DNA from: Halopseudomonas pelagia
Lineage (GTDB): Bacteria > Pseudomonadota > Gammaproteobacteria > Pseudomonadales > Pseudomonadaceae
DNA length: 64,000 bases
Assembly (NCBI RefSeq): GCF_009497895.1
Contig: NZ_CP033116.1
Coordinates: 3,038,001 to 3,102,000, forward strand
Reading direction: 5' to 3'
Below the pieces are notes generated by a model. That model did no database searches and was not told the origin of the DNA. It worked only from the letters and a program-made list of their open reading frames with translations. How positions within the stretch are numbered: position 1 is the stretch's first letter; each line of letters starts with the position of its first letter. Position numbers and translations under genes: made by a program. Below, piece by piece: positions 25,371-57,420 of this stretch.

Positions 25371-26798
25371 TCACGAATGCCGCTCAGGCCGCACCAGGCC
25401 CATCTTCTCGATCTTGTAGCGCAACATGTCCCGCGTTATGCCCAGCATCCGCGCTGACTTGGTCACGTTCCAGTCGGTTCGCTCCAGAGCACCCAAGACC
25501 TTATCCTTCCCACAACCCGCATTGGCTACCTCTTCACTACTGTCCACTTGCCGGGCGAATCGAGCGTTGTCCAGATCGCCAATTCGCCGCGCATAAGTGG
25601 TAGCCAGGCTGGGGCAGAGGCTCAGCTGAGCGACGCTCACCACCTGATCCGGCGCCAGCAAGGCTGCCTGTTCCAACATGTTTTTCAGCTCTCTGACGTT
25701 GCCTGGCCAGCTGTAGCTGGCGATGAGATCTTCCGCATCGGGGGAGAATTGCAGATCGGGTTTGCCGTAGCGTTTGCCATGCAGATCCAGAAAGTACCGC
25801 GCCAACAGCAGCACGTCTGCTCCGCGGTCCCTCAGGCTCGGGACCTTGAGCGAAATGATACGCAGGCGGAAGAACAAGTCCTTGCGGAAACGGCCCTGAC
25901 GAACCATTTGCTCAAGATCACAGTTCGTCGCGCTGATGATACGCACATCCACCTTGCGTTCCTTGGCGGAGCCAACGCGCCGCAAGGATCGGTCTTCCAG
26001 CAGTTTGAGCAACTTGGCCTGCATGGCCAGATCCAGCTCGCCGACTTCATCCAGAAACAGGGTGCCGCCATCGGCCGTTTCTACTAGCCCGACCCGGCGC
26101 TCCTTTGCATCGGTAAAAGCACCTTTCTCATGACCGAAAAGTTCGGCTTCGAGCAGCTGCGGCGGGATGGCTGCGCAATTGATTTCAACGAATGGGTTGT
26201 CACGCCTTGCGCCTTCGAAGTGCAGAGCGCGGGCGACCAGTTCCTTGCCAGTGCCCGTCTCGCCTTCGATCATCACCACCGGCAGATTGGTGTTTTTCAT
26301 CAGACCTTCAGCGGCCAGTATCCGGGAGATGCGATCCTTGAGCGCCAGCATGGCCGGCGATCCGCCTATCAGTGTTTCAAATCCGGCATTCTCGGCTTCG
26401 CGTTTCTGGTAGAACGACAGTTTCTGCTCCAGCTTCAGCGTGCCAAAGGCCTTTTCCATCAGCACTTTCAGCTCGGATAGCGCGATGGGTTTGGTCAGGT
26501 AATGAAACGCGCCAGCTTGCATCGCCTCCACGGCATTTTCGATGTTGCCGTAACCCGTCATCATGATGGTTTTCAGGTTGGGCGCGCTGGCCTGCAGTTT
26601 TCTGATCAGCTCAATGCCGCTCATGCCCGGCAAGGAGTTGTCGGTCAACACAACGTCAGGACGCATGGTGTACAGCAATTCCAGTGCACTTTCGGCAGAA
26701 TCGCAGATAACCGCCTCATAACCCCTGCGTTGAAGATAATTTTGGATGTTTTCCGCCAACAGGCTGTCATCCTCTACTACCAGAATTGTCTTATCCAT
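25371..26798 (-). CDS. NtrC-type sigma-54-dependent response regulator
   Basis: The protein has 475 residues. A receiver domain with phospho-acceptor Asp53 (VVLTDNSLPG) is followed by an AAA+ sigma-54 activation domain: Walker A GETGTGKE (about 180), the loop GAFTDA (about 226, Asp where most relatives have Gly) and Walker B GGTLFLDEVGEL. A Fis-type HTH is at the C-terminus (NVTKSARMLGITRDMLRYKI). Three consecutive ATGs exist; AAGGA spacing favours the third. It follows the kinase gene directly, so the two form a pair. Manganese oxidation in P. putida GB-1 is known to need such a regulator (MnxR); equivalence here is inferred from the linked oxidase locus. Confidence 0.93.
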   Translation of the reverse strand: MDKTILVVEDDSLLAENIQNYLQRRGYEAVICDSAESALELLYTMRPDVVLTDNSLPGMSGIELIRKLQASAPNLKTIMMTGYGNIENAVEAMQAGAFHYLTKPIALSELKVLMEKAFGTLKLEQKLSFYQKREAENAGFETLIGGSPAMLALKDRISRILAAEGLMKNTNLPVVMIEGETGTGKELVARALHFEGARRDNPFVEINCAAIPPQLLEAELFGHEKGAFTDAKERRVGLVETADGGTLFLDEVGELDLAMQAKLLKLLEDRSLRRVGSAKERKVDVRIISATNCDLEQMVRQGRFRKDLFFRLRIISLKVPSLRDRGADVLLLARYFLDLHGKRYGKPDLQFSPDAEDLIASYSWPGNVRELKNMLEQAALLAPDQVVSVAQLSLCPSLATTYARRIGDLDNARFARQVDSSEEVANAGCGKDKVLGALERTDWNVTKSARMLGITRDMLRYKIEKMGLVRPERHS

Positions 26799-26800
26799 CA

Positions 26801-28264
26801 TCATGATCCTTGGGCCAGGCTGAACCCCAAATCAATTGTAGTACCGCGTTGCTCATAGCTGCTGAGTGTGACTTCACCGCCGAATCGCTCCATGATCCGC
26901 TTGACCGTAACCAGGCCCACTCCCAGGCCCCCCTGCTTGGTGGTAAAAAAGGGTTTGAAGGCCATCGTGCGTTGTTGATTTGACATCCCGTTGCCGGTGT
27001 CGCTGATAGACAGCACCAGCTTTCCGGTGGCAGTGTCGATGTCCATCCGCAGCCGCAGCACCCCGCCGTGGGGCATGGCTTCGATGGCATTGGACAGCAC
27101 GCTGTTCAGCACCTGCGACAGCAGTACACGATGGGCCAGCACCAGAGGTTGTTCCTGCGGCGCGAAATCGACGTCGATGCGAAAGGTTTGTAGCTGCAAT
27201 TGGCACGCGCTCAGGGCATCTTCAATGATAGGTACCAGCTCGACGGGCCTGACCCGGCTGGACATTGGGCGCGAGGTCTGCAGAAGCTCACGCACCCAGG
27301 CAGACATGCGGTCGACCTGGTTGATAATGTCGTTGATGTTTTTCTTCGCTGGCTCCTGATCAAGCTCAAGCGCCAGCTCGGCGCTGGAGCGAATGGTGGC
27401 CAGCGGGTTACGCAAACTGTGTGCTATGGCGGAGGACATTTCGCCCATCGCCACGTAGGTTTCGTTCTCAACCAGTTTCTGCTGCTGATAGGCCAGCACC
27501 AGGGATGCTCTGCGCACAATCCAGAACAGCCCGAGATAAAGAGTCGCCGCGCCAATGATGGTCGTCGATGCAATCAGCCACATGCCTCGCTTGATCCGCG
27601 CGACCAGATCATTGGGCTCCTTGTAGATTTCGACGACTATTGCGACATCTCCGTTCAGATCCAGCAGTGGAATATAGTTCTCAATAAAGAAGGTGCGCGG
27701 ATGCCGGATGAACTGCTGCTCCTCATGGTGATTTTCCGCAGAGACATGAAAATAAGTGGAGCCTACCCGTCCTTTTGAGCTGAAGGCTTCATCCAGGTTA
27801 CCGTTGGCTGCGCTTTGATGACCTATCAGGTCGGGGTTGGTAGACCAGATAACACGGCGGTCGGTGGCGTAGATATTCGCCAGTAAAGCGTCGGGAAGAT
27901 GGGTGATATGGTCGAGAAATTCGCCGCGCACGTCATGAACCACTTCAAGAGGCAAATCTTGGTCTGTCAGCCGCCGCAGGTCGACTAGATCGCCCATTGT
28001 CAGAGTTTCAGGCAGGACCGAATGCCTGATTTCTGCTTCAGCCACTGCCCTTACAAACTGCGCGCTGAGCATCAGGTCACGTTCAATACTTTCGTTTACG
28101 ACGAAATGTGCAGACACGGCGCCCAATACAAGAGCGACCGCAGTGATCAGGATCAGGCTCAGCCAGGAATACCAGCGCAATAGATTAAATGGCCGGGTAC
28201 CCGGTTTTGTAGCTGAGTCGGGCTCGATCTTGGATTCCGTCCAGTACGATGTGACGTTTATCAT
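26801..28264 (-). CDS. Membrane sensor histidine kinase
   Basis: The protein has 487 residues. The start at 28264 is set by GGATGGAG 5 bases upstream. TM1 is near residues 33-53 and TM2 near 225-248, enclosing a periplasmic sensor domain of about 170 residues. The H-box is IAHSLRNPLATIRSSAEL (His about 282) and the ATP-binding motifs are NSVLSNAIEAMPHGG, SDTGNGM and GGLGVGLVTV. It should phosphorylate the adjacent regulator. The signal is unknown; the linked copper oxidase suggests a metal or redox cue. Confidence 0.93.
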   Translation of the reverse strand: MINVTSYWTESKIEPDSATKPGTRPFNLLRWYSWLSLILITAVALVLGAVSAHFVVNESIERDLMLSAQFVRAVAEAEIRHSVLPETLTMGDLVDLRRLTDQDLPLEVVHDVRGEFLDHITHLPDALLANIYATDRRVIWSTNPDLIGHQSAANGNLDEAFSSKGRVGSTYFHVSAENHHEEQQFIRHPRTFFIENYIPLLDLNGDVAIVVEIYKEPNDLVARIKRGMWLIASTTIIGAATLYLGLFWIVRRASLVLAYQQQKLVENETYVAMGEMSSAIAHSLRNPLATIRSSAELALELDQEPAKKNINDIINQVDRMSAWVRELLQTSRPMSSRVRPVELVPIIEDALSACQLQLQTFRIDVDFAPQEQPLVLAHRVLLSQVLNSVLSNAIEAMPHGGVLRLRMDIDTATGKLVLSISDTGNGMSNQQRTMAFKPFFTTKQGGLGVGLVTVKRIMERFGGEVTLSSYEQRGTTIDLGFSLAQGS

Positions 28265-28383
28265 AGCCACTCCATCCTTGCCGACAATATAGGTATAGCG
28301 CACGGCTAGCACAGAGCAAGCACCCTTCGTCAGATGCCGGCCGCGCTCTCGACCCGCGGCTCCCCCTAATCGGGCCCATTAAC

Positions 28384-28397
28384 GGGGGAATACCCCC
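28384..28397. promoter_or_regulatory. G-rich inverted repeat, candidate regulator-binding site (UAS)
   Basis: GGGGG-AATA-CCCCC is a perfect inverted repeat lying about 80-90 bases before the sigma-54-type promoter at 28474. It is similar in composition to G-rich repeats at 44033-44069 and 54834-54984. Enhancer function is inferred. Confidence 0.45.
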
Positions 28398-28473: not shown

Positions 28474-28490
28474 CTGGTACAGAAGCTGCT
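28474..28490 (+). promoter_or_regulatory. Candidate sigma-54 promoter for the secreted-protein/curlin genes
   Basis: CTGGTACAGAAGCTGCT has GG (-24) and GC (-12) with exactly 10 bases between, and matches the consensus at most positions. It is 64 bases before the ATG at 28555. An 8-bp stem (28502-28509 with 28520-28527) lies in the leader. The divergent kinase/regulator pair begins at 28264. Confidence 0.65.
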
Positions 28491-28554: not shown

Positions 28555-29913
28555 ATGCGCAGCTCTGTTTCGAAAACATCAGCGCTGATAATCATCGGAG
28601 GGCTGTGCGCAGGCATCGCTCAAGCAGCGTTGTATACCGTGGACCCCGGACCTTATGTACCGGCGAATGCCAATTTCCCCGCCTGGTACCAGGACACCCA
28701 TGGCCGCGCGCTGGATCTGTGTCTTTCCCGAGCGCTAAGCTCACGCGCTGGCGGGGCCGCAGGCACCTACATGTGCGGGCTGGGGGCAGAACCTGGCGTG
28801 TTCGACGATACTTTGCCCTTTGCCTTCCCCGGCAATTTCCCCAGCGAAGCATTCTGGTTTACCGCCGATGCCTCCATTGAAGACGCCGCGACCGGCATTG
28901 CGCTTGATTTTGGCACGGCTCTGGAAGCCGCCTTCAGCGGGGATGGACCCATTGACGGCGATCAGGTGGCCTTTTCACGCGTGCGCATTCGCGTCGACCT
29001 GACTGTCCCAGGGGTTTATACGGTGACCCACCCCTACGGCGTGGACGTTTTTGACATCTCCGCCGCAGACATCGCCGACGCTGGCGGTGACCGGGTGATC
29101 AACATGACCCGCGATATCGGCATCGCCAGCGATGGGCTGTTCAATGGTGCATTGACTGGCGACGTAGGCCCGTTCCTGCGCGGCATCAATGGTCCTTATA
29201 CCGAAACCAATCCGGATACCGGTGAGGTGGATACCTATGTTGGCGACCCGAACATTGAGGAAGAAGTCACCGGCAGTCCGTTCGCCACCAACTACGTCCG
29301 TATCGAGGGACCTAACGGCATTGACCTGCGCACCAACCTGTTTGCCGTTACCGGCATGCTTTCGGATGTTGCTTTGCCGACGCCGCTAAAAATCGACCGC
29401 GCCACCTATTCACGCCAGCCCGGTGAAGACGGCGTTGTCGCGCGGCAGGATGTATTCGCTCTGGCTCCCCCGCCTCCCGGCACAGCCCAATTCAGTGATA
29501 CCGGCGGTACCTCCCATGTCATGAGCGAGGAGAACACCACCGGAAACTGGTACGGGCAGTCCAGTGAGATCCCAACGGTGCTCGGCAGTATCAGCGTTAC
29601 CGCGGATAACAGCCTGGCGATACCCAGCAGTTCCGCTACCACCGCGCAGGCGCAGATTGTCGATCAAGTGATCATCCATCGCGCTGAATACAGCTTGTCG
29701 ACTGCGCAGCTGACTGTCGAAGCCGAATCCAGCGATAAAACCAGCCCACCGGTGCTGAGCGTGACCGGCAACAGCGGACCCATTGGGGATTTGAGCGGGA
29801 CCGGCGCCATCAAGCAGTTGGTGACCGGCGTCACACCTATCCCGCCCGCCAGTATCAACGTGACCTCGTCCAATGGCGGCGTCGATGTTGAAGAAGTCAT
29901 CATTCTCCCCTAG
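28555..29913 (+). CDS. Secreted protein of unknown fold, paralogue 1
   Basis: The protein has 452 residues. GGAGG lies 8 bases before this ATG. A Sec signal peptide ends near SQAQA-type residues (CAGIAQAALYTVDPG). The mature N-terminal region of about 280 residues (DPGPYVPANANFPAWYQDTHGR, LEAAFSGDGPIDGDQVAFSRVRIR, INMTRDIGI) is homologous to the next gene. The rest is Thr/Ser-rich beta-type sequence, with VTSSNGGVDVEEV near the end. Three Cys occur in the mature N-terminal part or signal (LCLS, YMCGL and the signal Cys). No known domain is recognised. It leads the predicted sigma-54 transcript that includes the curlin genes. Confidence 0.85.
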   Translation: MRSSVSKTSALIIIGGLCAGIAQAALYTVDPGPYVPANANFPAWYQDTHGRALDLCLSRALSSRAGGAAGTYMCGLGAEPGVFDDTLPFAFPGNFPSEAFWFTADASIEDAATGIALDFGTALEAAFSGDGPIDGDQVAFSRVRIRVDLTVPGVYTVTHPYGVDVFDISAADIADAGGDRVINMTRDIGIASDGLFNGALTGDVGPFLRGINGPYTETNPDTGEVDTYVGDPNIEEEVTGSPFATNYVRIEGPNGIDLRTNLFAVTGMLSDVALPTPLKIDRATYSRQPGEDGVVARQDVFALAPPPPGTAQFSDTGGTSHVMSEENTTGNWYGQSSEIPTVLGSISVTADNSLAIPSSSATTAQAQIVDQVIIHRAEYSLSTAQLTVEAESSDKTSPPVLSVTGNSGPIGDLSGTGAIKQLVTGVTPIPPASINVTSSNGGVDVEEVIILP

Positions 29914-29946: not shown

Positions 29947-32163
29947 ATGAATATTTGGCACAAAACCCTAACAACCAGCCTTGCGCTTGCCGCACTAACG
30001 GCCGGCCAAGCTTTCGGAGCGCTTAGCAGCCTCGACTTTGGGCCTTATACCGCCGCATCGGGGGGGTTCCCCATCTGGTATCAGGACGAAAATCAGCTCT
30101 CGCTTGAACTCTGCCGATCCAAAGCGGTGAGCTCTCGCAACGCCAACGCATCCATGTGCGCCCTGGCGGCCGATCCCGGCGTGTTCGACGATACACTACC
30201 GATGATCTTCCCGGGCAACTGGCCAGGCGAGCTGTTCTGGATGCTGGCCGAGACGGACATTCCCGCGGCAGGCAACAGCAACTACGAGCTTGAAGTCTAT
30301 GTAGCAGCCCTCGAAGCCGCCTTCTCCGGCGACTCGCCAGTGGACGGCGATCAAGTCAGTTTTGCCCGTATCCGCATCCGCGCGACCATTCCGATACCTG
30401 GCACCTATGTGATCACCCACCCTTATGGCGTGGAAACCATCCAGGTGACTGGTACAGGCCGTCGGGCGATCAACATGACGCGCGATATTGGTATTGGCTT
30501 GCCAGGGGATTTTGATGGTGCTCTGGAGGGCGATGTTGGTCCCTTCCTGGAAAGCGTCAACGGCCCCTACACCGAGGTTAATCCGGAGACCGGTTTAACC
30601 GAGAGTTTTGTAGGCGACCCAAGCTTGCGTGAACCCATGACAGGCAGCCCATTCGACACCAACTTCGTTCGTATCGAAGGACCAGCGGGTACGATTGAAA
30701 CGAATACCTTTAGCCTGAGTGGCAAGGTGTTTGACAACCTTACGCCCACCGCAGCCGAGATCGAGCGGGCTACTTATAGCCGGTCTGGCGGAAGCAGCAG
30801 CATCGATGTGTTCGCGACTTCGGTGGGTAATGCCGAGGTGTGCTTCCGGGAGTCGATTGAACTGGTGGGCGAGAACCCAGGTACACCCTGTCTGGTGGAT
30901 ATGACCGGCGATAACAACGGGCATTTCTTTGGCTACAAGCCGGCTCCGGCCGAGCTGCCTGAGGTGATCGTTGTGACGGCCGCCAATCCCAGCGGCGCAA
31001 CCGTGCCGACCACGCTATCCAGACCCTTGACTGATGTGGTGAAAATCACCAGTGCCGAGTACTCCTGGGTCAATAACAGCCTGACCATCGAAGCGGTTTC
31101 CAGCGATGAAGTCCAGGTGCCAGACCTGGTAGCAGAAGGCTTTGGCCGACTGTCCAAGGCAGGAACTACCCAGACCCTGAGCGTACCCAATCTGATGCAA
31201 CCGCCGTCCAGGATCAGCGTGAAGTCGTCTGCGGGCGGCGCTGACACCGAAATGGTCAGTGTGATCGATGACGCGCCAGCAACTGGCGGCAACGAGCCTC
31301 CGGTGGCAGCCAACGACAGCGCCAGCACCAGCTCCGGGGTGCCGATCGTTATCAATGTGCTGAGCAATGATACAGACCCTGATGGCGACATTCCGTTAAG
31401 CATCGTCGCGCTGACTCAACCCCCAATCGGGCAAGGCAGCGTCGCGCTCAACGGTAGCACCAGCGTGCTGTATACCCCACCGATCACCAACGTGCCAATA
31501 CAGGCTACCTTCAGCTATCGCGCCCAGGATATCCGCGGCGAGCAGTCCAATGTGGCTCAGGTAACGGTCAGCATCAGCGCCAACCAGGCACCGGTGGCAG
31601 TCAACGACAACGCCGCTACGCTGGCCATTCCGATCGATATTGATGTGCTCGCCAATGATACCGATCCGGAGAATAACCAGCCGTTCAGCATCGTCGGTCT
31701 GACCCAGCCGGCCAATGGCCAGGGCACTGTGAGCGTCAATGGCTCGCTGGTCAGATATACCCCACCGGCTACCGTCAGCAGCGCCTTCAATGCAACCTTC
31801 ACCTATCAGGTACAGGATGCGTTGAATGCGGTATCAGCGCCCGCCACGGTAACCGTCAGTGTGTCTCCACCACCCGCCACAGCTGAAACCATTAATGTCG
31901 CGACTTCGCTGCTACGCCTGCGCAGCAATGATCGGCAGACCTGGGATCTGCGTGGCAATACCTCGTTGGCGACCGGCAATACCATCACCATTGAGGTCAG
32001 CACCAATAACGGCCCTCTGTCACTGGGTACCGCAACGCTTAGCCTGACCGGCCAATGGCGGCTGTCGGCAAACACTGAAGGGCTGTCATTACCGGCCAAC
32101 CCGACTGCGACTATCAGGTCCGCTTTCGGGACTGTGTTGACCGTGCCGTTAACTGTACGTTGA
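29947..32163 (+). CDS. Secreted protein of unknown fold with two Ig/cadherin-like repeats, paralogue 2
   Basis: The protein has 738 residues. After a signal peptide (ending GQAFG), residues 25-270 repeat the fold of paralogue 1: DFGPYTAASGGFPIWYQDENQ, LEAAFSGDSPVDGDQVSFARIRIR and INMTRDIGIG. Two tandem domains near residues 455-545 and 550-640 carry the NDTDPDGD / NDTDPENN calcium-type motif and VLYTPP / VRYTPP ends, as in extracellular Ig or cadherin-like repeats. A further beta-rich C-terminal domain follows. A surface adhesin or matrix scaffold role is inferred from context. Confidence 0.85.
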   Translation: MNIWHKTLTTSLALAALTAGQAFGALSSLDFGPYTAASGGFPIWYQDENQLSLELCRSKAVSSRNANASMCALAADPGVFDDTLPMIFPGNWPGELFWMLAETDIPAAGNSNYELEVYVAALEAAFSGDSPVDGDQVSFARIRIRATIPIPGTYVITHPYGVETIQVTGTGRRAINMTRDIGIGLPGDFDGALEGDVGPFLESVNGPYTEVNPETGLTESFVGDPSLREPMTGSPFDTNFVRIEGPAGTIETNTFSLSGKVFDNLTPTAAEIERATYSRSGGSSSIDVFATSVGNAEVCFRESIELVGENPGTPCLVDMTGDNNGHFFGYKPAPAELPEVIVVTAANPSGATVPTTLSRPLTDVVKITSAEYSWVNNSLTIEAVSSDEVQVPDLVAEGFGRLSKAGTTQTLSVPNLMQPPSRISVKSSAGGADTEMVSVIDDAPATGGNEPPVAANDSASTSSGVPIVINVLSNDTDPDGDIPLSIVALTQPPIGQGSVALNGSTSVLYTPPITNVPIQATFSYRAQDIRGEQSNVAQVTVSISANQAPVAVNDNAATLAIPIDIDVLANDTDPENNQPFSIVGLTQPANGQGTVSVNGSLVRYTPPATVSSAFNATFTYQVQDALNAVSAPATVTVSVSPPPATAETINVATSLLRLRSNDRQTWDLRGNTSLATGNTITIEVSTNNGPLSLGTATLSLTGQWRLSANTEGLSLPANPTATIRSAFGTVLTVPLTVR

Positions 32164-43934: not shown

Positions 43935-43951
43935 GGCATGCTTCATGCCAG
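43935..43951 (-). promoter_or_regulatory. Candidate sigma-54 promoter for the secretion/csg operon
   Basis: On the minus strand CTGGCATGAAGCATGCC has GG and GC separated by 10 bases and a near-consensus -24 box (TGGCA). It lies about 65 bases before the TTG start at 43871. Confidence 0.75.
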
Positions 43952-44032: not shown

Positions 44033-44069
44033 TGGGGAAATACGATTGGGGAACAGGTGGATTTCCCCA
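44033..44069. promoter_or_regulatory. Cluster of three TGGGGAA-type repeats, candidate enhancer
   Basis: TGGGGAAAT at 44033-44041, TTGGGGAAC at 44046-44054 and ATTTCCCCA (inverted) at 44061-44069. They lie about 85-130 bases upstream of the promoter at 43935, the usual position of NtrC-type binding sites. Confidence 0.55.
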
Positions 44070-48948: not shown

Positions 48949-51900
48949 CCGTTACCCGCAGCAATCCCCATAAGCCTGAGGCGTTACCGAAGGCGGCATA
49001 ATCGCGGTATAGATAGTCGCCCTTGATGCCATTGCCACCGCCAGCGCTGGGTAACATGAAGCTGAAATGTGCTGCCGGCAGTACGCTTTCCTGCGCGGCG
49101 GCGTAGCGGCTCAGCGGGTTGTAGCCAAAGCGTACTGCCCCTACACCCGGATCCTTCAGCGGGTAGCCCTGGGAGTCAGTTTTTTCCGAGATGAACGGAT
49201 CTACCGGCCACAGATGTCCAGCCAACTGGAAGGTCGAACCACGACTACCGCCGGACGGCATGGTCAGATTGATCCGGAAGGCTTCATTGGGTTTGACCCG
49301 CAGAATCGGGGTGACCGGATCGGAGCCAACCAACGCATTGCTGTACGCCATGTGCGCATTGGGTACGTCACCCCAGCCCTGGCCATCAGCGCGGCCGAAC
49401 GGCGCATCCGGCGCCTTGGCGAAGCGATACCACAGCGGCTCGGTGCGATAATTCACCGCCATGCCGGAATTGTCCTTGGGATCATTCGGTACACCAATGC
49501 CTTCTATTGCGACGTTTTCCACCGGCCGGCCACTGGCCCAGCGCATGTTCAAGCCCTTCTGCCAGATCAGCGAGAAGTCCTTGTAGGCTGGCTTGTTCGG
49601 CGCAGTGACCGTGGCGGTGGCGCGCATGGTCGGGTTCTCCTCCCAGGTGGCGCCCATGGGCACAATAGTCATCGCCCCTACCAGGCCCTTCTGTGGCTGC
49701 TTGATCATGTCGGCCGGCATCAGATTCAGCCCGCCAAACTCGATTGGTGTGGCAATGATGTTGTCAACGCTACGGCCGAGCCGTACCAGCGGCCTGCCTT
49801 CGCGCTGCAGATGCCCGGCGTAGTATTGATACTCGCGCGTCGGGTACTCGCCAGGCACAGTACTGGGTGCCACGGTTTGCACCGGATTCATGCCGACATT
49901 CATGCCGTCGGATTGAGTCACGTCGTATGCCATCAGTTGCGCATGCATGCCGACGTGGCTGGAGGGGCGCATCAGGTTGTTGTTGAAGGTGGTCGAACCC
50001 TGATTGCCCTGCCGGTCGCGCTTGGCTACACCCTGCATGATGGCGAAGTTCGGCAGGTCGGGCATGACCAGTGGCAGACGGTTCTCCAGTGCGACGGTAA
50101 CGCAGTCGCCCGCCGCGGCGCGCAGCATCAGCGGTTCCACTGGCACGCCGGGCTTCAGCTTGCCGGTGACCGGATCCAGGTCGCTTTTGCGCACGTAGAG
50201 AATCGCGGTAGGGTCATGCAGCGGCCCGGACTCACCGCCGAGGGTGACGGTTTCGCCATCTTCCGGGTCCACTATGGTGACCTGTGGAATGGCAGTGGCC
50301 CGCGGGTTCATCACCAGCGTTCCGCCATCGGGGTTGAGCGCGCCGCCGACATGCGAGCCGGCGCCGTCCGGGTCGTCAATGCTCAGCCCGAGACTGTTAC
50401 CCAACACATCGTTGGCCAGCACCGCGACTACCTCGAAACGACGCTGGACGGTGCTGCGCGAGCCAATTCCATTAGGGTTGGGGCTGAATCTTGGGCACAC
50501 GCCACCGTAGGAGACAGTATTGCGCGGGGCCACCGGGATGCTGTTGTTTGGCACCGGCATCAGGTCATCGCGGCTGGCTGAATAATTGCGCATCACGCCC
50601 CAGATGCCGCTCCAGTACCCTTCCATGGACGCGTCCATAGCGTACAAGTAGTCCGCTGTCTCAGACGCCCTGCCGGAGAACATGTGCACCGGCGCGGTAA
50701 AGCCGAGCTGCTCGGAAATACCGATCATCTGCGATCCGCGCCAGCCCGAGTTGGCGCTGGTGACTATGCCGCTGCCACCCTGAAGCCATTTGACCCCGTG
50801 CAGCGTGACGTTGTGCTCCTCTTCATGCCCGCCAGCAATGATCCGCAGCCTGACGTTGTCACCTGTGTAGGTACGCAGCATGGGCGTGAACGCGTCTCCA
50901 GGCTCACCACCGCCAGCATTGATATGCGGCGGGAAACTGGTGGTAGCGCCGGTGGGCCCGACGGCACTGAGCAGCGCATCGGGAGTCAGATTCAGTGCCG
51001 CAATTGCCCGGTCTGTGCGGGTCTGCAAAGCGAACGCCAGATCCCCCGCCAAACCCTCTGCCTGCATGCCTGGTTTGCCATCCGGAGCAATCCGTTGCGG
51101 GTCAAAGATGCGCAACCCCACCGGTTCGTTGCGGTAGTTCACCACAAACATACCCGGGTCATCGGCGGAAATGGCCTGAGGGCATGGGCGTATCGGGCAG
51201 CCGAGCTTTTCACCTCCAGCCACTTCAATGACCGACTCCAGCAACGCGTTGGCGCTCTTGCGTTCGGGCGGGTTGATAGCATAGCGGAAACTGTCGGTGG
51301 TAGCCGGAAACGCACCCGGATCGGGCCTGCCGTCAGGCCCTGCGCCCACATAAACCCCGGCTTCATAGGCATGCTGGAAATCGCTATAGGCCAGGAAGAA
51401 CTCCCTGAAGCTGTCGTTTTTACCATCGGCATTTTCATCGCCAGCGGCAATCACGGCTTGCCAGGAGGTCGGCCCACCATCCTCACGGGTATACATCGGT
51501 TCGCCGGTTTCCGCGTGGTACCAGGTCGAGCCTGCCGGTTCAACCAGCACAGTAGCGTACAGGCCAAGCTGCTGGTGGGTGGACGGGGCCAAATGATCGT
51601 GGGTGAAAATATTGCCCAGGCCGCGATCGATGCCATGGGAATTGACCACCGGATCAACGAACCAGCGTTGCATGCCAGTGCGCGCTCCGAGCCAATCCGG
51701 CCGGCTGAACTGGCCAAAATATGGATGGACCTTGGCTAGCGGACAATCCTGGGTGCCGTCGCGCGCATCGCCTACGGCGCACTCGTTGTATTCCCGAATA
51801 GCTTCGATACGCTCGGTCACTGCAACGGGGGCAAGTATGCCATCCTCATAGTTCCAGCCATTCGAGGCGCCGTCGGCCGCAGTCAGATCCCATTTCGGCA

Positions 51901-54709
51901 AGTGGATGTGCTGGCCAACTACGTCGCTGGGAGTGCGCACCTGATAGTCGTCAAGCTCATAGTAAGCCGGTATGAGATTGGTCTGGTGGTACATGGCACA
52001 GTCAAAACTATTCAGGCGCATCACCAGCGGCTCGGGTGGCTGCTGCTTGTTGATCACCGGCCAGGCATCTTCCCAGAGCGTGAGGATGCGTGCCTGAGGA
52101 TAGTGGTAACCAACCTTGTTAAAGACCGCGTCAAACTGGATGTTGGCACCCTTGTAAATGCGCGGACGGTCAGCGGTATAGGGGGACGAGCCGGTGAAAG
52201 ACATACCGTTGGTTTTTTCACCACTGAAGAAACGCCCTACACCCGCCGCGCTGGTCAAAAGTTTTTGCTGGTCATCCATGCAGGGCTCGAAAAAGGGTGC
52301 CCCGGCCATCGGCAACGCACCGTTGGTGCGGAAACTGGCCGACTGCACCGTGCCATTGGGCATTACCTTGAAGCTGGGGTGTTCCTTGCGCGCGTGATAA
52401 CTCATCGCGGCTTGTTCTACGTCATTACCCTGTTCCGGAAACCAGATTGGCCGGGCGCGACTGATACGCTTGGAAAAGTCCACCGCACTGGTGGTTACAT
52501 CCGCCTCGCCACCCGCAGACCAGCCGTCCAGTGCATGCCGCGGCAGGCCACCGTCCCATCCGTCCACCTGGGTGGGCTCAAGCGCTTGCCACAATGCATT
52601 GCCGCTGTCCTTCAGTGCCTGAGCTGCCAACGGATCAAGCATATCCAGCGGCGGGGTTGGCGGGCGTTGCCCTACAGTGTGTTCAATCCCGCCGATCCAG
52701 AAGGGATAGCCGGGGTTTATCAGGGTGCCGTCCGGGTTGTAGTTGGCTTCGCTGCGGTCCACCAGAGCCAAAGAGCCAAGCGGTTCGCCGGTTTCAGTGG
52801 ATTCACCCTCCTCGTGATCCCCTTCCGCCAGCAACTCACCCTGGGCAAACCGGGGCACCACACTGACCTTGCCCGGCATGGGTGGGAGTGGCTTGCCGGG
52901 CAGCGGCACCACCGCAGGAATCGGCGTGCCGGCGACGATCTCGCCGTCCGGCAAGGCGCGCGCGCCCTCTGCTGGCATGCCGCTACGCAAGGCGAACGGT
53001 TCCTCATGGAAACCATCTTCACCCTCCTCCGAAACCGCTAGACGACTGCCTTGCTCGAAAACATCATGCACCCGCCACAGGGCCCACATTCCCTGAGCAA
53101 AATGGGGGTAGAAATGGCAGTGGTAGATGGCGTCGCCGGCTACCCGATTGCGATTGCCGGATCCGCCTAAAGCGATTTCATAGGTGAATCCCGCGCCCGG
53201 GCCGATACCCTGAGCGTCAATGTAATCGGAGTTGTCGTCATTGGGGTTGAATAACCACTGATGACCGTGCAGGTGGAAAATGTGCTGTTCGTGCCCCGCA
53301 TGGGTGTTACGGAACTTGACGAAATCGCCAATGTAACTGTGGTTGACGTTGGAGGGGTCGCTGGGGAAAAGCGCCATGGTCGCCTTGACGCCAATATCTT
53401 CCGGGTCGGGTGTTTGCCCCGGGACGATATCCTCCAGCCCGACGTTGGCTGGCACATCGACCAGCATGGCGGCGTCACCTACAACGTGCGAGGACAGAAA
53501 GAATTCCTCATATGCGCAGGACAAGCAATCATGCATGGGCCCTACGCCAAGCCGGTTAGCGATAATCTCAGAACCAATACCGGCCGAGCCGTAGTTGATC
53601 ATGAAGGAATCGCGGGTGGGTTGCAGCACGTGACCGAACACCGGATCGTTCCAATAGCCTGGAAAGGCCTGGGCAGCGGCGGTCTCATCATGCCAGGCAG
53701 AGGCAAAGTCGCGGAACGGCTCAAGCCGGTTAGGCAGCGACGGGTTGCGTTTGCCAATCCTTTCCAGCGGATAAGTCGCAGGCGGAAAACTGCCATCGGC
53801 ATTAGGGCCCAACACTATGGCATCAGTAGAGCTGACGATAATCTCGCTGCCATCGACCATATTGAGAATGGGTTTGCCGGCCTTACCTTCGGCGATCCAG
53901 GGTTCGCTTTGGGGGAAACGTGCTTCATAGTCAATGATCGGCTGGCCAGCCGGGGTCCGACCAGTGGAGGCCAGGCGCATCTCTTCTTCGGTAACCGTGT
54001 TGCGATAACTTCTGGCACCTTTGGGCAGTACTATCACCTGACCGAACAGGCCGTTGGTCATATTCCCAGCCGTGCCTTCGCCACCAAAGGTTGCGCCATA
54101 GCTGGTCGCCAGAAACGCGCCCTCACGCTCGGCGTAGAGCACATAGTTTCGGCTGGCGCCGGGGGCCAGCAGGGTATTGTCGTTCTCGCCCGAATTGGTG
54201 GCGATGTCATCAATCGAGTTGACCGCCTGCAGTCCATTCACCTTGAACCCGACATGACGATCTGTCACCTGGTCATCAATCTGCAGGGCTGGGTGCCCTT
54301 CGCCCTTGCGCGGGTTAGCCTGTTCCGCCAACAGGTTCTGCAGCTGCACGGTAATGCAGTCGCCTTCTGCCACACGCAATATCAACGGCCGCGGACGCTT
54401 GTCCGGGCGCAGCAGTACGCGCCCCGGGAGGGCTTGGCCGCCCTCTGACAGCAACACCTGGTTTTCGTCGACCACATCTGAGCGCAGGGCAAACATCATC
54501 CCATTGATATTCTGCGCGCCAAGTCGGTTGAACATCAGCGGCTGGTCGAATGCGACGACTTTGGCGACCAGGTGGCGCTGGCATTGAATAGCCGCCTGCA
54601 CCTCGCGGTCCGGCACTGCCAGGCTCATGGCCACAAGCGACACGCATAGCAGACTGCGTAGCCCCGACCTTGGAATGGAACTGAATAAATGGTGCAGGTT
54701 CTGGCTCAT
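48932..54709 (-). CDS. Giant multicopper oxidase, manganese-oxidase (MnxG/MofA) type
   Basis: The protein has 1925 residues; GGAGG 8 bases upstream sets the start at 54709. The Sec signal peptide ends VQA/AIQC. Many cupredoxin domains follow. Copper motifs: HIFHLHGHQWLF (about 475), IYHCHFYPHFAQGMWAL (about 530, the HCHxxxHxxxxM type-1/trinuclear motif), GQHIHLPKWD (about 930), FTHDHLAPSTHQQLG (about 1036), HNVTLHGVKWLQGG (about 1300) and SHVGMHAQLMAYD (about 1583). Ordinary laccases have about 500 residues; the length matches bacterial Mn(II) oxidases such as MnxG of P. putida GB-1. Mn as substrate is inferred. Confidence 0.9.
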   Translation of the reverse strand: MSQNLHHLFSSIPRSGLRSLLCVSLVAMSLAVPDREVQAAIQCQRHLVAKVVAFDQPLMFNRLGAQNINGMMFALRSDVVDENQVLLSEGGQALPGRVLLRPDKRPRPLILRVAEGDCITVQLQNLLAEQANPRKGEGHPALQIDDQVTDRHVGFKVNGLQAVNSIDDIATNSGENDNTLLAPGASRNYVLYAEREGAFLATSYGATFGGEGTAGNMTNGLFGQVIVLPKGARSYRNTVTEEEMRLASTGRTPAGQPIIDYEARFPQSEPWIAEGKAGKPILNMVDGSEIIVSSTDAIVLGPNADGSFPPATYPLERIGKRNPSLPNRLEPFRDFASAWHDETAAAQAFPGYWNDPVFGHVLQPTRDSFMINYGSAGIGSEIIANRLGVGPMHDCLSCAYEEFFLSSHVVGDAAMLVDVPANVGLEDIVPGQTPDPEDIGVKATMALFPSDPSNVNHSYIGDFVKFRNTHAGHEQHIFHLHGHQWLFNPNDDNSDYIDAQGIGPGAGFTYEIALGGSGNRNRVAGDAIYHCHFYPHFAQGMWALWRVHDVFEQGSRLAVSEEGEDGFHEEPFALRSGMPAEGARALPDGEIVAGTPIPAVVPLPGKPLPPMPGKVSVVPRFAQGELLAEGDHEEGESTETGEPLGSLALVDRSEANYNPDGTLINPGYPFWIGGIEHTVGQRPPTPPLDMLDPLAAQALKDSGNALWQALEPTQVDGWDGGLPRHALDGWSAGGEADVTTSAVDFSKRISRARPIWFPEQGNDVEQAAMSYHARKEHPSFKVMPNGTVQSASFRTNGALPMAGAPFFEPCMDDQQKLLTSAAGVGRFFSGEKTNGMSFTGSSPYTADRPRIYKGANIQFDAVFNKVGYHYPQARILTLWEDAWPVINKQQPPEPLVMRLNSFDCAMYHQTNLIPAYYELDDYQVRTPSDVVGQHIHLPKWDLTAADGASNGWNYEDGILAPVAVTERIEAIREYNECAVGDARDGTQDCPLAKVHPYFGQFSRPDWLGARTGMQRWFVDPVVNSHGIDRGLGNIFTHDHLAPSTHQQLGLYATVLVEPAGSTWYHAETGEPMYTREDGGPTSWQAVIAAGDENADGKNDSFREFFLAYSDFQHAYEAGVYVGAGPDGRPDPGAFPATTDSFRYAINPPERKSANALLESVIEVAGGEKLGCPIRPCPQAISADDPGMFVVNYRNEPVGLRIFDPQRIAPDGKPGMQAEGLAGDLAFALQTRTDRAIAALNLTPDALLSAVGPTGATTSFPPHINAGGGEPGDAFTPMLRTYTGDNVRLRIIAGGHEEEHNVTLHGVKWLQGGSGIVTSANSGWRGSQMIGISEQLGFTAPVHMFSGRASETADYLYAMDASMEGYWSGIWGVMRNYSASRDDLMPVPNNSIPVAPRNTVSYGGVCPRFSPNPNGIGSRSTVQRRFEVVAVLANDVLGNSLGLSIDDPDGAGSHVGGALNPDGGTLVMNPRATAIPQVTIVDPEDGETVTLGGESGPLHDPTAILYVRKSDLDPVTGKLKPGVPVEPLMLRAAAGDCVTVALENRLPLVMPDLPNFAIMQGVAKRDRQGNQGSTTFNNNLMRPSSHVGMHAQLMAYDVTQSDGMNVGMNPVQTVAPSTVPGEYPTREYQYYAGHLQREGRPLVRLGRSVDNIIATPIEFGGLNLMPADMIKQPQKGLVGAMTIVPMGATWEENPTMRATATVTAPNKPAYKDFSLIWQKGLNMRWASGRPVENVAIEGIGVPNDPKDNSGMAVNYRTEPLWYRFAKAPDAPFGRADGQGWGDVPNAHMAYSNALVGSDPVTPILRVKPNEAFRINLTMPSGGSRGSTFQLAGHLWPVDPFISEKTDSQGYPLKDPGVGAVRFGYNPLSRYAAAQESVLPAAHFSFMLPSAGGGNGIKGDYLYRDYAAFGNASGLWGLLRVTDDEDE

Positions 54710-54757: not shown

Positions 54758-54774
54758 AGCAATTGCTATGCCAA
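54758..54774 (-). promoter_or_regulatory. Candidate sigma-54 promoter for the oxidase operon
   Basis: On the minus strand TTGGCATAGCAATTGCT matches the -24/-12 consensus closely (TTGGCA, 10 bases between GG and GC, TTGCT). It is about 50 bases before the oxidase ATG at 54709. Confidence 0.8.
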
Positions 54775-54833
54775 AAAAAATCCAGATATATATCAGTGAC
54801 CTGCGTAAGGCGGGCAAATCAAACTGGGTAATC

Positions 54834-54984
54834 CCCCGGAAATTGCCCACCCATTCACCCAGCAATTCCAGGTGTGGCGGTGTGTCTATTGGTAAGGAGC
54901 TGGTCAGCGGATTTTGCAGCTTGAGAAATGGTCAAACACTCCCCCAGGCCTGGGGAAACTTACCCGACAATGGTGGGGTAATCC
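54834..54984. promoter_or_regulatory. G-rich inverted repeats upstream of the oxidase promoter, candidate enhancers
   Basis: The stretch contains CTGGGTAATCCCCC (54834-54847), the perfect palindrome CCCCAGGCCTGGGG (54942-54955), TGGGGAAAC (54951-54959) and TTACCC-N10-GGGTAA (54960-54981) with TGGGGTAATCC (54974-54984). They lie 60-210 bases upstream of the promoter at 54758. Confidence 0.5.
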
Positions 54985-54988: not shown

Positions 54989-55585
54989 TCATTTGGCTTG
55001 ATGAGCCGCCTGAAGATGCCGATAGTGACGCAACACCCGGGGAACATATTTCTGCGTTTCTGCGAAGGGTGGAACCGTCCGCCCGTGTTGCTGTACTGCG
55101 CCAGGACCGGCATTGTAAGCCGCCAGCGCCAGCTCAATGTCGCCTTCAAACAATGTCATCAGGCTCTTCAGATAGCGGGCACCGCCACTGATATTGGCAG
55201 CCGGATCCCATATATCTTCGACGCCCATCTCGACCGCGGTCGCCGGCATCAATTGCATCAAACCAACCGCTCCACGGGGTGACAGGGCCAGCGCGTTATA
55301 GCCGGACTCAACCTGGATAACCGCATGCAGCAAGGCCTCCGGCACGTCGTGCAGGTTGGCCGCCTCGCTGACCAGTGCGGTGTAGGCCTGTGGCTGTGGC
55401 GATCCAGAGGGCCTGGTGACCGGCGTCGGTTCTGTCAGTTTTACCGGTGAAAACCCCGGGCCGGAGCGCACGTTGGTCAGGATAATGGTGCCCGTCGCTG
55501 ATACCGATGTGTAGAAGCCGGCCGCCTGCTGGGCGTACGCCGGGAGCACAATTAACGACAGCACCAGTATCAGCATCGGACGCAT
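54989..55585 (-). CDS. Lytic transglycosylase (SLT domain)
   Basis: The protein has 198 residues. A signal peptide (LVLSLIVLPAYA) and a short linker precede an SLT domain: catalytic Glu in AVIQVESGYNALALSPRGAVGLMQLMPATA, then GGARYLKSLMTLF and ALAAYNAGPGAV. It cleaves peptidoglycan and may open the wall for the secretion apparatus or the curli channel. It lies between the oxidase operon and gspG and has its own sigma-54-type promoter. Confidence 0.92.
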   Translation of the reverse strand: MRPMLILVLSLIVLPAYAQQAAGFYTSVSATGTIILTNVRSGPGFSPVKLTEPTPVTRPSGSPQPQAYTALVSEAANLHDVPEALLHAVIQVESGYNALALSPRGAVGLMQLMPATAVEMGVEDIWDPAANISGGARYLKSLMTLFEGDIELALAAYNAGPGAVQQHGRTVPPFAETQKYVPRVLRHYRHLQAAHQAK

Positions 55586-55626
55586 GTTTTATTTCCTTAT
55601 TTGTTCTCCGGGACGCGGGTCTTCCC

Positions 55627-55643
55627 TGCAAAGCACATGCCCG
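55627..55643 (-). promoter_or_regulatory. Candidate sigma-54 promoter for the lytic transglycosylase gene
   Basis: On the minus strand CGGGCATGTGCTTTGCA has GG-N10-GC and a TTTGCA -12 box. It lies about 42 bases before the ATG at 55585. Confidence 0.6.
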
Positions 55644-55682
55644 TGTTGCTCTGCCCTCGCCTGAGCAGTCAGCCGCGCAAAA

Positions 55683-55699
55683 CTTGCATAACTTTTGCA
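55683..55699 (+). promoter_or_regulatory. Weaker sigma-54-like promoter for gspG-gspF
   Basis: CTTGCATAACTTTTGCA keeps the -12 TTTGCA and the 10-base spacing but has TG in place of the nearly invariant GG at -24. It lies 37 bases before the gspG ATG. Confidence 0.35.
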
Positions 55700-55735
55700 T
55701 GGACAGCTCATGCGCAACTTTCAGGAGGAACAGTG

Positions 55736-56167
55736 ATGACTTCCCACTCTCTAGACGCCGAGAACAAAAATCGCGGCTTCACTTTGCTCGAGCTGTTGGT
55801 GGTGCTGGTGGTACTGGGGATGCTGGCGGGCATCGTAGGGCCCAAGTATTTCAAGCAACTCGGGCGTTCGGAAACCAAGATTGCCCATGCCCAGATCGAA
55901 ACCTTGGTGAAGGCCCTGGACATCTATCGCCTGGAGATGGGCAATTACCCGACCGGGGAGCAAGGTTTACAGGCGCTGGTAGAACCGCCCGGCGATTCGG
56001 TCAGCTGGGGCGGCCCCTACCTGCGCAAGGGTGTGCCACTGGATCCATGGGGCCGCGAATACGTTTACCGCTCGCCCGGTGAGCATGATGAATACGACCT
56101 GCTTTCATGGGGCAAGGATGGGCGCCCCGGGGGCGAAGGTGAAAACGTGGAGATCGTCAGTTGGTGA
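55736..56167 (+). CDS. gspG: Type II secretion major pseudopilin GspG
   Basis: The protein has 143 residues. AGGAGG lies 7 bases before this ATG. The leader NKNRG/FTLLELLVVLVVLGMLAGIVGPKYF has the cleavage site and Glu5. The body has IYRLEMGNYPTGEQGLQALVEPPGD, LDPWGREYVYRSPGEHDEYDLLSWGKDG, the calcium-site region of true GspG. It is the likely main pseudopilus subunit of the apparatus encoded at 36-43 kb. Confidence 0.95.
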   Translation: MTSHSLDAENKNRGFTLLELLVVLVVLGMLAGIVGPKYFKQLGRSETKIAHAQIETLVKALDIYRLEMGNYPTGEQGLQALVEPPGDSVSWGGPYLRKGVPLDPWGREYVYRSPGEHDEYDLLSWGKDGRPGGEGENVEIVSW

Positions 56168-56232
56168 ACTGCTGAGCCCCCCTGTCGTTAGCCGCGGCTG
56201 ACAACACCCCTACATAAACCAAGGACGCAGCA

Positions 56233-57420
56233 ATGCACTACCGGATCAAGGCCATCCAGCAGCCCAAGGGTATCGTCACCCTGAACTTCTTCACGCCTAC
56301 GGCGAAAGAAGCGGAAGATCTCGCGCGCGAACAAGGTTATCGGGTGCTGGGTGTACAGCCGGTGTCCCGCTGGATGGCTGGCAGCTGGCGCAAGGAACGC
56401 TTCCCCTTGATGTTGTTCAGCCAGGAACTGGCGACGCTGCTGCGCGCCGGGCTGGCACTGATCGATGCGCTGGAAAGCCTGGCGGAGAAAGAGTCCGATC
56501 CGCAGTCAGCCAAGGTTCTGTCGAGCATTATCCGGCTGCTGTACGAAGGCAAATCCCTGTCCCAGGCGCTGGGTCAGTTTCCGTGGATCTTTCCACCGCT
56601 GTACCTGGCGTTATTGCAATCCAGCGAAAAAACCGGCGATAGCGCCGCCGCGCTGGAACGTTACGTCAGCTATCGGTACCGGCTTGAAGAGGTACGCCAG
56701 AAGATCATCAGCGCCTCGGTTTACCCGGTTCTGTTGCTGGCGGTGGGCGGGCTGGTCATGCTGTTTCTGCTGGGCTACGTGGTGCCCAGGTTCAGCCTGG
56801 TGTTCGACGGCATGGAAGGTCAGCTGCCGTGGTTGTCGCAGGTGTTGCTGGCATCAGGCCAATGGTTGAACGAGCACTACACCGCGCTCTTGCTCGGAGT
56901 GCTGATAGCCGTCTGCATAATAGTGGCCGGGTTCAAACAGCCGGTCAGCAAACGAATGCTCCACCGCCTGCTGGCCAGCTTGCCGATCATCAATCAACGG
57001 CTATTTATTTATGAAATGGCCCGGTTCTATCGTTCGCTGGGCATTCTTCTGCAGGGCGGCATTCCGCTGCTGACTGCGATGGAGATGGTCAAAGGACTAC
57101 TGAGTCTTACCGCGCAACTACGATTACAACAAGCTCGCGATCGGATCCGCGAGGGGCAATCGCTTTCACGCGTTCTTGAGGAATATCAGCTATCCACACC
57201 TATATCGATTCGTATGCTGCGTGCGGGAGAGCAATCAGGGAATGTAGGCGAAATGATGGAAAAAACCGCCAATTTTTACGACGCCGAAACCAACCGCTGG
57301 ATAGATTGGTTCATCAAGCTATTCGAGCCTTTGCTGATGACCTTTATCGGGTTGCTCATCGGCGGAATCGTCATCCTCATGTACATACCGATCTTCGAAC
57401 TGGCCTCAAGCATTCAATAG
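56233..57420 (+). CDS. gspF: Type II secretion inner membrane platform protein GspF
   Basis: The protein has 395 residues. Two T2SSF domains (about 65-190 and 265-390) carry the paired motifs LFSQELATLLRAGLALIDALESLAE and FYRSLGILLQGGIPLLTAMEM, with three membrane helices including VLLLAVGGLVMLFLLGYVVPRFS and the C-terminal LLMTFIGLLIGGIVILMYIPIFEL. It is the platform on which GspE acts. No other gspF is present in the window, so this copy probably serves the 36-43 kb apparatus. Confidence 0.95.
   Translation: MHYRIKAIQQPKGIVTLNFFTPTAKEAEDLAREQGYRVLGVQPVSRWMAGSWRKERFPLMLFSQELATLLRAGLALIDALESLAEKESDPQSAKVLSSIIRLLYEGKSLSQALGQFPWIFPPLYLALLQSSEKTGDSAAALERYVSYRYRLEEVRQKIISASVYPVLLLAVGGLVMLFLLGYVVPRFSLVFDGMEGQLPWLSQVLLASGQWLNEHYTALLLGVLIAVCIIVAGFKQPVSKRMLHRLLASLPIINQRLFIYEMARFYRSLGILLQGGIPLLTAMEMVKGLLSLTAQLRLQQARDRIREGQSLSRVLEEYQLSTPISIRMLRAGEQSGNVGEMMEKTANFYDAETNRWIDWFIKLFEPLLMTFIGLLIGGIVILMYIPIFELASSIQ

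Follow-up and report, generated by a model that had tools for sequence, protein, structure and literature searches.

Why do bacteria oxidize manganese, and how does the oxide get placed outside the cell? Both are open questions, and a locus of Halopseudomonas pelagia raises them in a concrete form. Within the window, which is the whole 64,000-nucleotide stretch analyzed here (contig NZ_CP033116.1 of a 4.55 Mb, single-contig genome), positions 25371–57420 hold genes for a giant multicopper oxidase, a type II secretion system (T2SS), curli amyloid and a two-component system with an NtrC-type regulator. An initial annotation of this DNA had read the locus as one programme which exports the oxidase and sets it, or its oxide, into an amyloid matrix. 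We consider it likely that the locus is a single sigma-54 regulon, one that makes an extracellular Mn(II) oxidase along with a dedicated T2SS, its own curli and a surface for the enzyme. The observation itself stands up: the arrangement is conserved and makes functional sense. Much of the set stays together in many relatives, suggesting that the cell produces the fibres and the mineral-forming enzyme under a single programme.

The locus is compact. Between 25.4 and 57.4 kb, 27 genes leave no gap of more than 279 nt, and 96% of the DNA is coding (after start corrections), so the claim of contiguity without an unrelated gene holds. Families were assigned by Pfam and NCBIfam profile searches against curated cut-offs, and all the modules that the initial annotation listed were recovered at the coordinates it gave. 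Direction and spacing delimit six transcription units: the kinase and regulator genes (minus strand); P458, P738 and two curlins (plus); the receiver gene, GspE, the platform proteins, the secretin, three pseudopilin-like proteins, CsgE, CsgF and CsgG (minus); mnxG, the propeller, two SCO genes and the cytochrome fusion (minus); the transglycosylase (minus); and GspG with GspF (plus). P458 and P738 are two secreted proteins. The features are as follows, in window coordinates.

25371..26804, minus: NtrC-type response regulator, MnxR-like (Pfam Response_reg, Sigma54_activat and HTH_8, a Fis-type helix-turn-helix)
26801..28312, minus: sensor histidine kinase, MnxS-like (Pfam HisKA, HATPase_c); adjoins the regulator in most layouts showing the kinase
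28385..28396: palindrome GGGGAATACCCC, candidate activator site, exact match to GGGGAWWWCCCC
28475..28490, plus: candidate sigma-54 -24/-12 site before the P458-P738-curlin unit, 2 mismatches
28555..29913, plus: secreted P458, about 452 amino acids (aa) from ATG; no Pfam or NCBIfam match, all-beta model
29947..32163, plus: secreted paralog P738 (Pfam: two C-terminal Big_9 domains)
32228..32734, plus: curlin 1, 168 aa (Pfam Curlin_rpt, 5 stretches)
32790..34073, plus: curlin 2, 427 aa (Pfam Curlin_rpt, 6 stretches; 20 matches to a loose curlin-repeat pattern)
34146..34988, minus: CsgG, curli pore (Pfam, 263 bits)
35012..35428, minus: CsgF (Pfam)
35425..35928, minus: CsgE (Pfam)
35925..36473, minus: third pseudopilin-like protein (no Pfam match; GFTFLGV motif, conserved position)
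36439..36813, minus: pseudopilin b (N_methyl, GFTLIEL)
36817..37296, minus: pseudopilin a (N_methyl, GFTLIEL)
37293..39152, minus: secretin, GspD/PilQ-like (Pfam Secretin, Secretin_N, STN; weak N-terminal TPR matches)
39149..39694, minus: platform protein, PilP/GspC-like by position only (no Pfam match; conserved position)
39697..40311, minus: T2SSM_b, GspM-like (Pfam, 23.8 bits; cut-off 21.7)
40229..40780, minus: PilN-like platform protein (Pfam PilN, 17.4 bits, under the cut-off of 22.8)
40782..41726, minus: PilM/GspL-like by position (no Pfam match; true start probably 41603 or 41576)
41584..43290, minus: GspE ATPase (Pfam T2SSE, 411 bits)
43320..43910, minus: receiver-only response regulator, here the first gene of the T2SS-csgEFG unit (Pfam Response_reg)
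43935..43950, minus: weak sigma-54-like site TGGCATGAAGCATGCC before the receiver gene, 3 mismatches, found by reading upstream
44057..44068: palindrome GGGGAAATCCAC upstream of the receiver gene, 1 mismatch to GGGGAWWWCCCC
44105..45637, minus: fusion of a cytochrome c domain (CVNCH) and a periplasmic binding domain (Pfam; cytochrome match 21.1, just under the cut-off of 21.3)
45641..46264, minus: SCO copper chaperone b (Pfam SCO1-SenC)
46261..46965, minus: SCO copper chaperone a (Pfam SCO1-SenC)
46990..48948, minus: YVTN beta-propeller protein (Pfam/NCBIfam)
48932..54709, minus: MnxG giant multicopper oxidase, 1925 aa, signal peptide (NCBIfam NF041487)
54758..54773, minus: sigma-54 -24/-12 site TGGCATAGCAATTGCT before mnxG, 1 mismatch
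54825..54836: palindrome GGGGATTACCCA, upstream of the mnxG -24/-12 site at a start-to-start distance of 63 nt
54989..55585, minus: SLT lytic transglycosylase (Pfam SLT)
55627..55642, minus: sigma-54 site GGGCATGTGCTTTGCA before the transglycosylase gene, 2 mismatches
55601..56167, plus: GspG major pseudopilin, open reading frame (ORF) as listed, true start near 55733 (Pfam T2SSG, N_methyl)
56233..57420, plus: GspF inner-membrane platform protein (Pfam T2SSF)

Does the set travel together? The family sample for linkage and co-occurrence comprised 398 genomes, and the recurrence of the complete block in other genomes argues against a chance assembly. Matches numbered 67 for MnxG, 136 for CsgG, 69 for P458 and 68 for the locus-type secretin. 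One partial multicopper oxidase match (46%, genome G132) was dropped, which leaves 66 MnxG genomes, and a genome with MnxG in two pieces (G077) was kept. All 66 carry the secretin, all 66 carry P458 and 61 carry CsgG, which is found in 75 of the 332 other genomes. Secretin occurs without MnxG in G088 and, weakly, in G007; the latter (38% identity) was left out of the position list, while the Fisher total kept all 68 secretin genomes. The Fisher p values (1e-27 for CsgG, below 1e-71 for the secretin and for P458) ignore kinship and therefore indicate a strong association only. In the host genus, MnxG is present in 4 of 37 genomes, the host included.

Positions tell a similar story. The mnxG and secretin genes lie within 40 kb of each other in 58 of the 66 genomes (far apart on one contig in 3, on different contigs in 5), and mnxG and csgG within 28 kb in 54 of 61 (range 9.3–27.8 kb; 3 far, 4 on different contigs). 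The tightest pair is secretin and csgG, within 40 kb in 60 of 61 genomes with a median of 2.3 kb, the remaining one having them on different contigs. GspE lies within the flank in at least 67 among 80 of 467 relatives, many of the flanks being truncated. The synteny check proposed for Pseudomonadaceae thus shows strong co-occurrence and modules that are not routinely separate.

Layouts drawn for hand-picked genomes add detail (G, L and g numbers denote genomes, loci and genera). The complete unit occurs in three genera: g1 (G006, G015, G022), g8 (G173) and g11 (G149, G152). The two g11 genomes carry duplications, their receiver gene having moved beside GspF and a second regulator-P458 set, and mnxG is in tandem in G152. 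In genus g14, G343 and G365 hold everything except the regulator in the fetched stretches, and G365 has its regulator about 22 kb from mnxG, on the opposite side. G092 has a different gene order but keeps the linkage. P458, P738 and the curlins have moved as a group in G324, G203, G252 and G355, and G062 and G203 have mnxG away from the T2SS-csgEFG operon. The csgG genes of Pseudomonas resinovorans DSM 21078 and P. koreensis DSM 16610 are about 14–15 kb from mnxG; their same-contig placement is deduced from identical coordinates in G100 and G266. For Pseudomonas sp. DSV-1 and MS-1, the published IMG numbers of mnxG and mnxR are 27 apart. The offset between mnxG and the regulator in the window is 23 genes, and the additional genes reported for these strains (SurA, mcoA with a SCO gene, a second kinase) bring it to 27, which suggests, by numbering, that both strains carry the unit. 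An mcoA-SCO pair is reported between mnxS1 and mnxS2 in DSV-1 and MS-1. In locus L155 (G252, 873–8459) a SCO gene lies between two kinase genes; this matches the reported pair, so mcoA may belong to the unit there.

The assignment of the oxidase rests on several features. It passes the NCBIfam MnxG equivalog NF041487 (3823.8 bits, cut-off 3100, covering model positions 1–1894 of 1894), and its best sequence match in the PDB is the MnxG structure 9bxa. The ligand motifs of type 1 and trinuclear copper sites are HxHGH and HCHxxxH; HLHGH is found at 531 and HCHFYPH at 582 of the 1977-aa ORF. This ORF was called from 54865, and the probable start is 54709 (1925 aa), with a ribosome-binding site and a Sec-like signal peptide. 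Among seven Cu-oxidase_3 matches in the genome, mnxG is the sole giant frame. By family membership, the enzyme probably turns dissolved Mn(II) into oxide. Two other Cu-oxidase_3 genes, at C1:814440 and C1:4295676 of the host genome (G000), have identical scores and 483-aa frames, which suggests a duplicated copper-oxidase gene. Tandem mnxG copies occur in several Pseudomonas genomes (G152, G098, G167), and loci L103 and L106, probably those of G098 and G167, show three pieces each.

How would the oxidase leave the cell? The secretin, the GspE ATPase, the GspF platform protein and the major pseudopilin GspG all score above the Pfam cut-offs. For the inner-membrane assembly (GspL, GspM, GspC), T2SSM_b is above its cut-off, the PilN match is below, and the proteins at the PilM and PilP positions lack a Pfam family. 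Because these matches are absent or sub-threshold, the names PilM, PilP, PilN and third pilin rest on position and motif. The third pseudopilin-like protein (35925–36473) has GFTFLGV at the cleavage motif, without the usual glutamate, whose absence is a trait of the tip-type minor pseudopilin. The locus has no prepilin peptidase; the only Peptidase_A24 match of the genome is at C1:3884989, and the pseudopilins are presumably processed by that enzyme. That the system exports the oxidase, as the initial annotation held, is supported by the presence of the secretin with MnxG in 66 of 66 genomes and by earlier genetics reported for P. putida GB-1.

The search was extended to 302 genomes from other families of the class, five of which have an MnxG match. 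In three of them (G430, L182; G697, L184; G551, L187), genes for GspE, GspF, GspG and a secretin lie near mnxG and are only about 25–55% identical to their counterparts in the locus. The MnxG contig of G425 has no GspE, GspF, GspG, secretin, curli or P458 gene, and G696 is a fragment. With MnxG beside type II genes and no curli seen there, the pairing of MnxG with type II secretion is wider than the link to curli. These neighbourhoods give the impression that MnxG acquired type II partners on more than one occasion. Separately, the MnxG-less G007 of the host genus has a type II cluster (L193) in which a 36–38% identical secretin and similar pseudopilins lie beside GspG, GspF and GspE.

Curli are represented by CsgE, CsgF, CsgG and curlin-repeat subunits, all recognized by Pfam. 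In the window, there is a 4-nt overlap between the ATG of csgE and the stop of the last pseudopilin-like gene. The same overlap is seen in 11 of 13 loci holding both genes, each from another genome, and was not settled by the script in the other two (L119, L167). This arrangement shows curli export joined to the type II operon. A tree of 60 CsgG sequences (35 of the 61 mnx sequences and 25 CsgG from 24 of the 75 mnx-free genomes, hand-picked for spread) requires 3 changes of the mnx-linked label, compared with 19.3 in shuffles. Near-copies favour this test, and more weight goes to where the sequences fall within the genus: in four genomes of the host genus, the mnx-free CsgG groups with sequences of genus g15 (support 98/92), apart from the mnx-type CsgG of their own genus. 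The mnx-linked CsgG of the host genus is therefore a lineage distinct from its mnx-free CsgG. Within the 20 kb fetched, the csg loci of the MnxG-less G009, G029, G097 and G141 have no T2SS and no P458 or P738.

The secreted pair consists of paralogs, as the initial annotation had proposed, with 47% identity over the shared part. P458 matches no known family in Pfam or NCBIfam, and P738 none beyond cadherin/Big_9-type domains. The predicted structure of P458 consists of beta-sandwich domains (predicted local distance difference test score 79). P458 is found in all five MnxG genomes which lack CsgG and in none of the 75 genomes with CsgG but without MnxG, so it tracks MnxG and the regulator, not curli. 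It is 95% identical to a protein named for Halopseudomonas laoshanensis and is also found in Pseudomonas sp. MOB-449, a strain named in connection with low-temperature Mn oxidation in PMC11409713. Three genomes have P458 without MnxG (G046, G093, G351). In genus g11, a further kinase-regulator-receiver set accompanies P458, and P738 where the stretch reached it, in L131 (G152), L166 (G149), L143 (G046) and L152 (G093). This set adjoins transglycosylase-GspG-GspF in L131 and L166 and occurs without MnxG in G046 and G093.

What could hold such a set together is common control. The regulator has receiver, sigma-54 activation and helix-turn-helix domains. In a hand-picked sample of 40 of the 66 MnxG genomes (the host included), 4 partial carriers and 19 genomes without MnxG, an ortholog (at least 60% identity, E <= 1e-130) is present in 40/40, 4/4 and 0/19, respectively. 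Candidate promoters were sought with a -24/-12 pattern (GG and GC fixed, up to 2 mismatches) in ortholog upstream regions reduced for redundancy, with those of the window included, and in 50 shuffles. The pattern occurs before mnxG in 61 of 85 regions (shuffle maximum 14), before the transglycosylase gene in 37 of 37 (maximum 9), before P458 in 17 of 21 (maximum 5) and before the receiver gene in 20 of 41 (maximum 4), where the window's own site is not among them. Controls within operons, which were not reduced for redundancy, are near the shuffles for curlin 1 (1/20, shuffle 0.6), CsgE (2/20, 1.3), GspF (1/61, 2.9), GspG (3/72, 4.0) and the histidine kinase (1/18, 1.2). The relocated P458-P738-curlin unit keeps its site in G324, G203 and G355, and not in G252.

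In earlier work, sigma-54 and integration host factor sites were predicted before mnxG and mcoA in GB-1, and rpoN::Tn5 abolishes Mn oxidation in Pseudomonas sp. MS-1, with restoration by complementation. What is new is the extension of predicted sigma-54 sites to the curlin, T2SS-csgEFG and transglycosylase units. These units would then be under the control of sigma-54 and the regulator. The description of the locus as one programme is well supported by the conserved linkage, the overlap of csgE with the T2SS operon, the four conserved sites and the co-occurring regulator.

A palindrome, picked by eye from the window's own upstream regions, was then counted in the orthologs (up to 1 mismatch to GGGGAWWWCCCC). 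It lies upstream of mnxG in 52/85, the transglycosylase gene in 16/37, P458 in 5/21 and the receiver gene in 10/41 (shuffle maxima 5, 2, 2 and 2). Among the 14 mnxG loci listed, 11 have it 63–64 nt upstream of the -24/-12 site. In the window as a whole it is weakly enriched (42 compared with 27.6 expected; 2 of 100 shuffles as high). Controls gave 0/27 for P738, 0/20 for curlin 1, 0/20 for CsgE and 2/80 for GspE (shuffle 1.3). The counts at GspG (39/72) and the histidine kinase (5/18) concern upstream regions shared with the transglycosylase and P458, respectively. In many loci the palindrome lies downstream of the transglycosylase sigma-54 site, a poor fit to a simple upstream activator site. 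One further copy, CGGGAAATCCCC at 8589–8600, lies outside the locus inside an ORF (7151–8686, minus) and is probably due to chance.

Co-occurrence, linkage, the csgE overlap and the conserved sites are direct observations; the regulation, the export route and the part of curli as a bed for oxidase or oxide are deduced from them. These elements can be arranged into a sequence of events. The sensor kinase and the MnxR-type activator would switch on four transcription units from the putative promoters: mnxG-propeller-SCO-SCO-cytochrome, the transglycosylase, P458-P738-curlins and receiver-T2SS-csgEFG. MnxG would reach the periplasm via its signal peptide, be loaded with copper with the help of the SCO proteins, and exit through the dedicated type II system, in line with the Gsp-dependence reported for the Mn-oxidizing factor of GB-1. 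CsgEFG, encoded at the end of the type II operon, would bring the curlins out in parallel. Export is also probable for the beta-rich P458/P738 pair, which may act on the cell surface or within the matrix. What results would probably be a curli layer on the cell, in which the oxidase works and the oxide deposits. A bolder reading, to which we give a little less than an even chance, is a composite biomineralizing surface: MnxR and sigma-54 would jointly turn on the oxidase, a private type II exporter and private curli, so that oxidase, P458/P738 scaffold and amyloid are delivered in step and curli serve as the bed for Mn oxide. An amyloid matrix embedding the oxidase or its oxide, as in the initial annotation, is a reasonable inference, and that annotation is partly supported overall.

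Several observations weigh against the interpretation as one regulon with its own curli. Five of the 66 MnxG genomes have no CsgG match (G052, G067, G077, G082, G120), so curli are not obligatory and are dispensable for the rest of the set. P458 is within 40 kb of mnxG in only 36 of 66 genomes (10 far on one contig, 20 on different contigs); the modules are kept together, yet the secreted pair and the regulator are placed elsewhere in many genomes. Genus g11 has its receiver gene next to GspF or a second regulator instead of before the T2SS operon (L131, L166, L144). The MnxG loci of the five genomes outside the family have neither curli nor P458 in the stretches fetched. The sigma-54 pattern in the window alone is at chance level (56 matches, 49 expected), which is why ortholog upstream regions were used, and the receiver-gene site of the window has 3 mismatches. 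Some control counts exceed the shuffles: for the sigma-54 pattern YVTN (33/102, shuffle 6.2), GspE (11/80, 2.6) and P738 (4/27, 1.2), and for the palindrome GspF (6/61, 0.5) and YVTN (5/102, 0.5). The shuffles underestimate the background for GspE and YVTN because conserved coding DNA lies upstream of both. Finally, homologs of the GB-1 Mn-oxidation genes in KT2440, W619 and F1 (W619 without PputGB1_2665) are described only as potential in the review PMC3056050, so gene carriage does not prove the trait.

The missing CsgG of those five genomes also fits a reading in which the curli are ordinary biofilm fibres, co-regulated with the oxidase through stationary, surface-attached life and neither binding nor organizing oxidase or oxide. 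Published work ties Mn oxidation to the stationary phase and, in P. resinovorans, to cyclic di-GMP and biofilm. Such shared timing is quite possible, although we lean away from it: the curli export genes overlap the type II operon, which goes beyond mere nearness, mnx-tied csgG belongs to another lineage than the free csgG found in that genus, and the linkage persists in the rearranged G092. That rearrangement also speaks against a neighbourhood kept by descent alone, without functional meaning. Genomes of one family are not independent, and the Fisher values take no account of this; nevertheless most relatives lack MnxG (it is present in 3 of 36 others in the genus), and secretin and P458 come and go with it almost without exception. 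The promoter sites and the 4-nt overlap are moreover kept across loci whose proteins are often only 35–75% identical, and we regard pure inheritance as very improbable.

A different doubt concerns the cargo. The type II system could serve P458/P738 or other proteins, with MnxG surfacing by another way. P458 tracks the secretin as tightly as MnxG does (66/66), the T2SS and regulator are present in G088 in the absence of MnxG, and P458 occurs in the three MnxG-less genomes named above. However, G088 lacks a P458 match as well, and those three genomes have no locus-type secretin match at E <= 1e-100. In 3 of 5 genomes from other families, the MnxG homolog is next to a distant type II system, and the Mn-oxidizing factor of GB-1 reportedly needs a Gsp-related pathway. 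We therefore judge this alternative unlikely.

A conserved unit of oxidase, exporter and amyloid makes both the deposition of oxide on curli and control by a single regulator directly testable. It also opens two unnamed secreted proteins to genetics, the first being present in all 66 MnxG genomes of the family sample, and it represents a case of a curli exporter joined to a type II operon.

How does this unit relate to known systems? A close counterpart is P. putida GB-1, whose mnxG operon comprises mnxG, propeller, SCO, SCO, cytochrome/periplasmic binding protein and SurA, with the regulators MnxS1, MnxS2 and MnxR. The window shares the oxidase family, the order from mnxG to the cytochrome fusion, the NtrC-type regulator and, by its predicted sites, the sigma-54 dependence of GB-1. 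It differs in lacking a SurA gene between the cytochrome and receiver genes (194 nt gap), while the GB-1 regulator genes are 72–74 IMG numbers from mnxG, a distance read from the numbering. A type II-like, Gsp-related pathway was reported to be required for export of the GB-1 Mn-oxidizing factor (de Vrind 2003). The genes of the GB-1 pathway are reportedly named xcm.

The initial annotation knew of no description of such a linked unit. The mnxG operon, MnxS/MnxR with sigma-54 and the Gsp pathway are all in print; the statement stands for the whole unit and for its curli part, neither of which was found described among the listed matches of the open-licence literature searched. The words ‘secretion’ and ‘curli’ are absent from the main text of the mnxG papers PMC8218464, PMC11930936 and PMC11409713. 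PMC3056050 covers the Gsp pathway and, in a separate section, the csgEFG and csgAB clusters of P. putida; the passages available draw no link between them. Among the papers listed, it alone treats both curli and mnxG, again in different sections. Each module is of a known kind, and it is the combination, above all a joint curli-type II operon within a putative sigma-54 Mn regulon, that was not found in print within this literature.

Two further systems share parts of the design. In Geobacter, the multicopper oxidase OmpB is extracellular and leaves through an atypical type II system (OxpG/Pul), and SCO and cytochrome genes lie near ompB as they do near mnxG here. OmpB, however, serves Fe(III)/Mn(IV) reduction and not Mn(II) oxidation, the neighbours described for the pul genes are cell-division and DNA genes, and the passage on ompB and pul does not mention curli. 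The curli systems of Pseudomonas (type VIII) have CsgE, CsgF, CsgG and curlins in common with the locus, and PMC3521004 reports no csgD near csg genes in Pseudomonas except in P. stutzeri. Unlike the four mnx-free csg loci examined (G009, G029, G097, G141), the locus described here carries csgEFG as the tail of a type II operon, with a sigma-54 regulator nearby.

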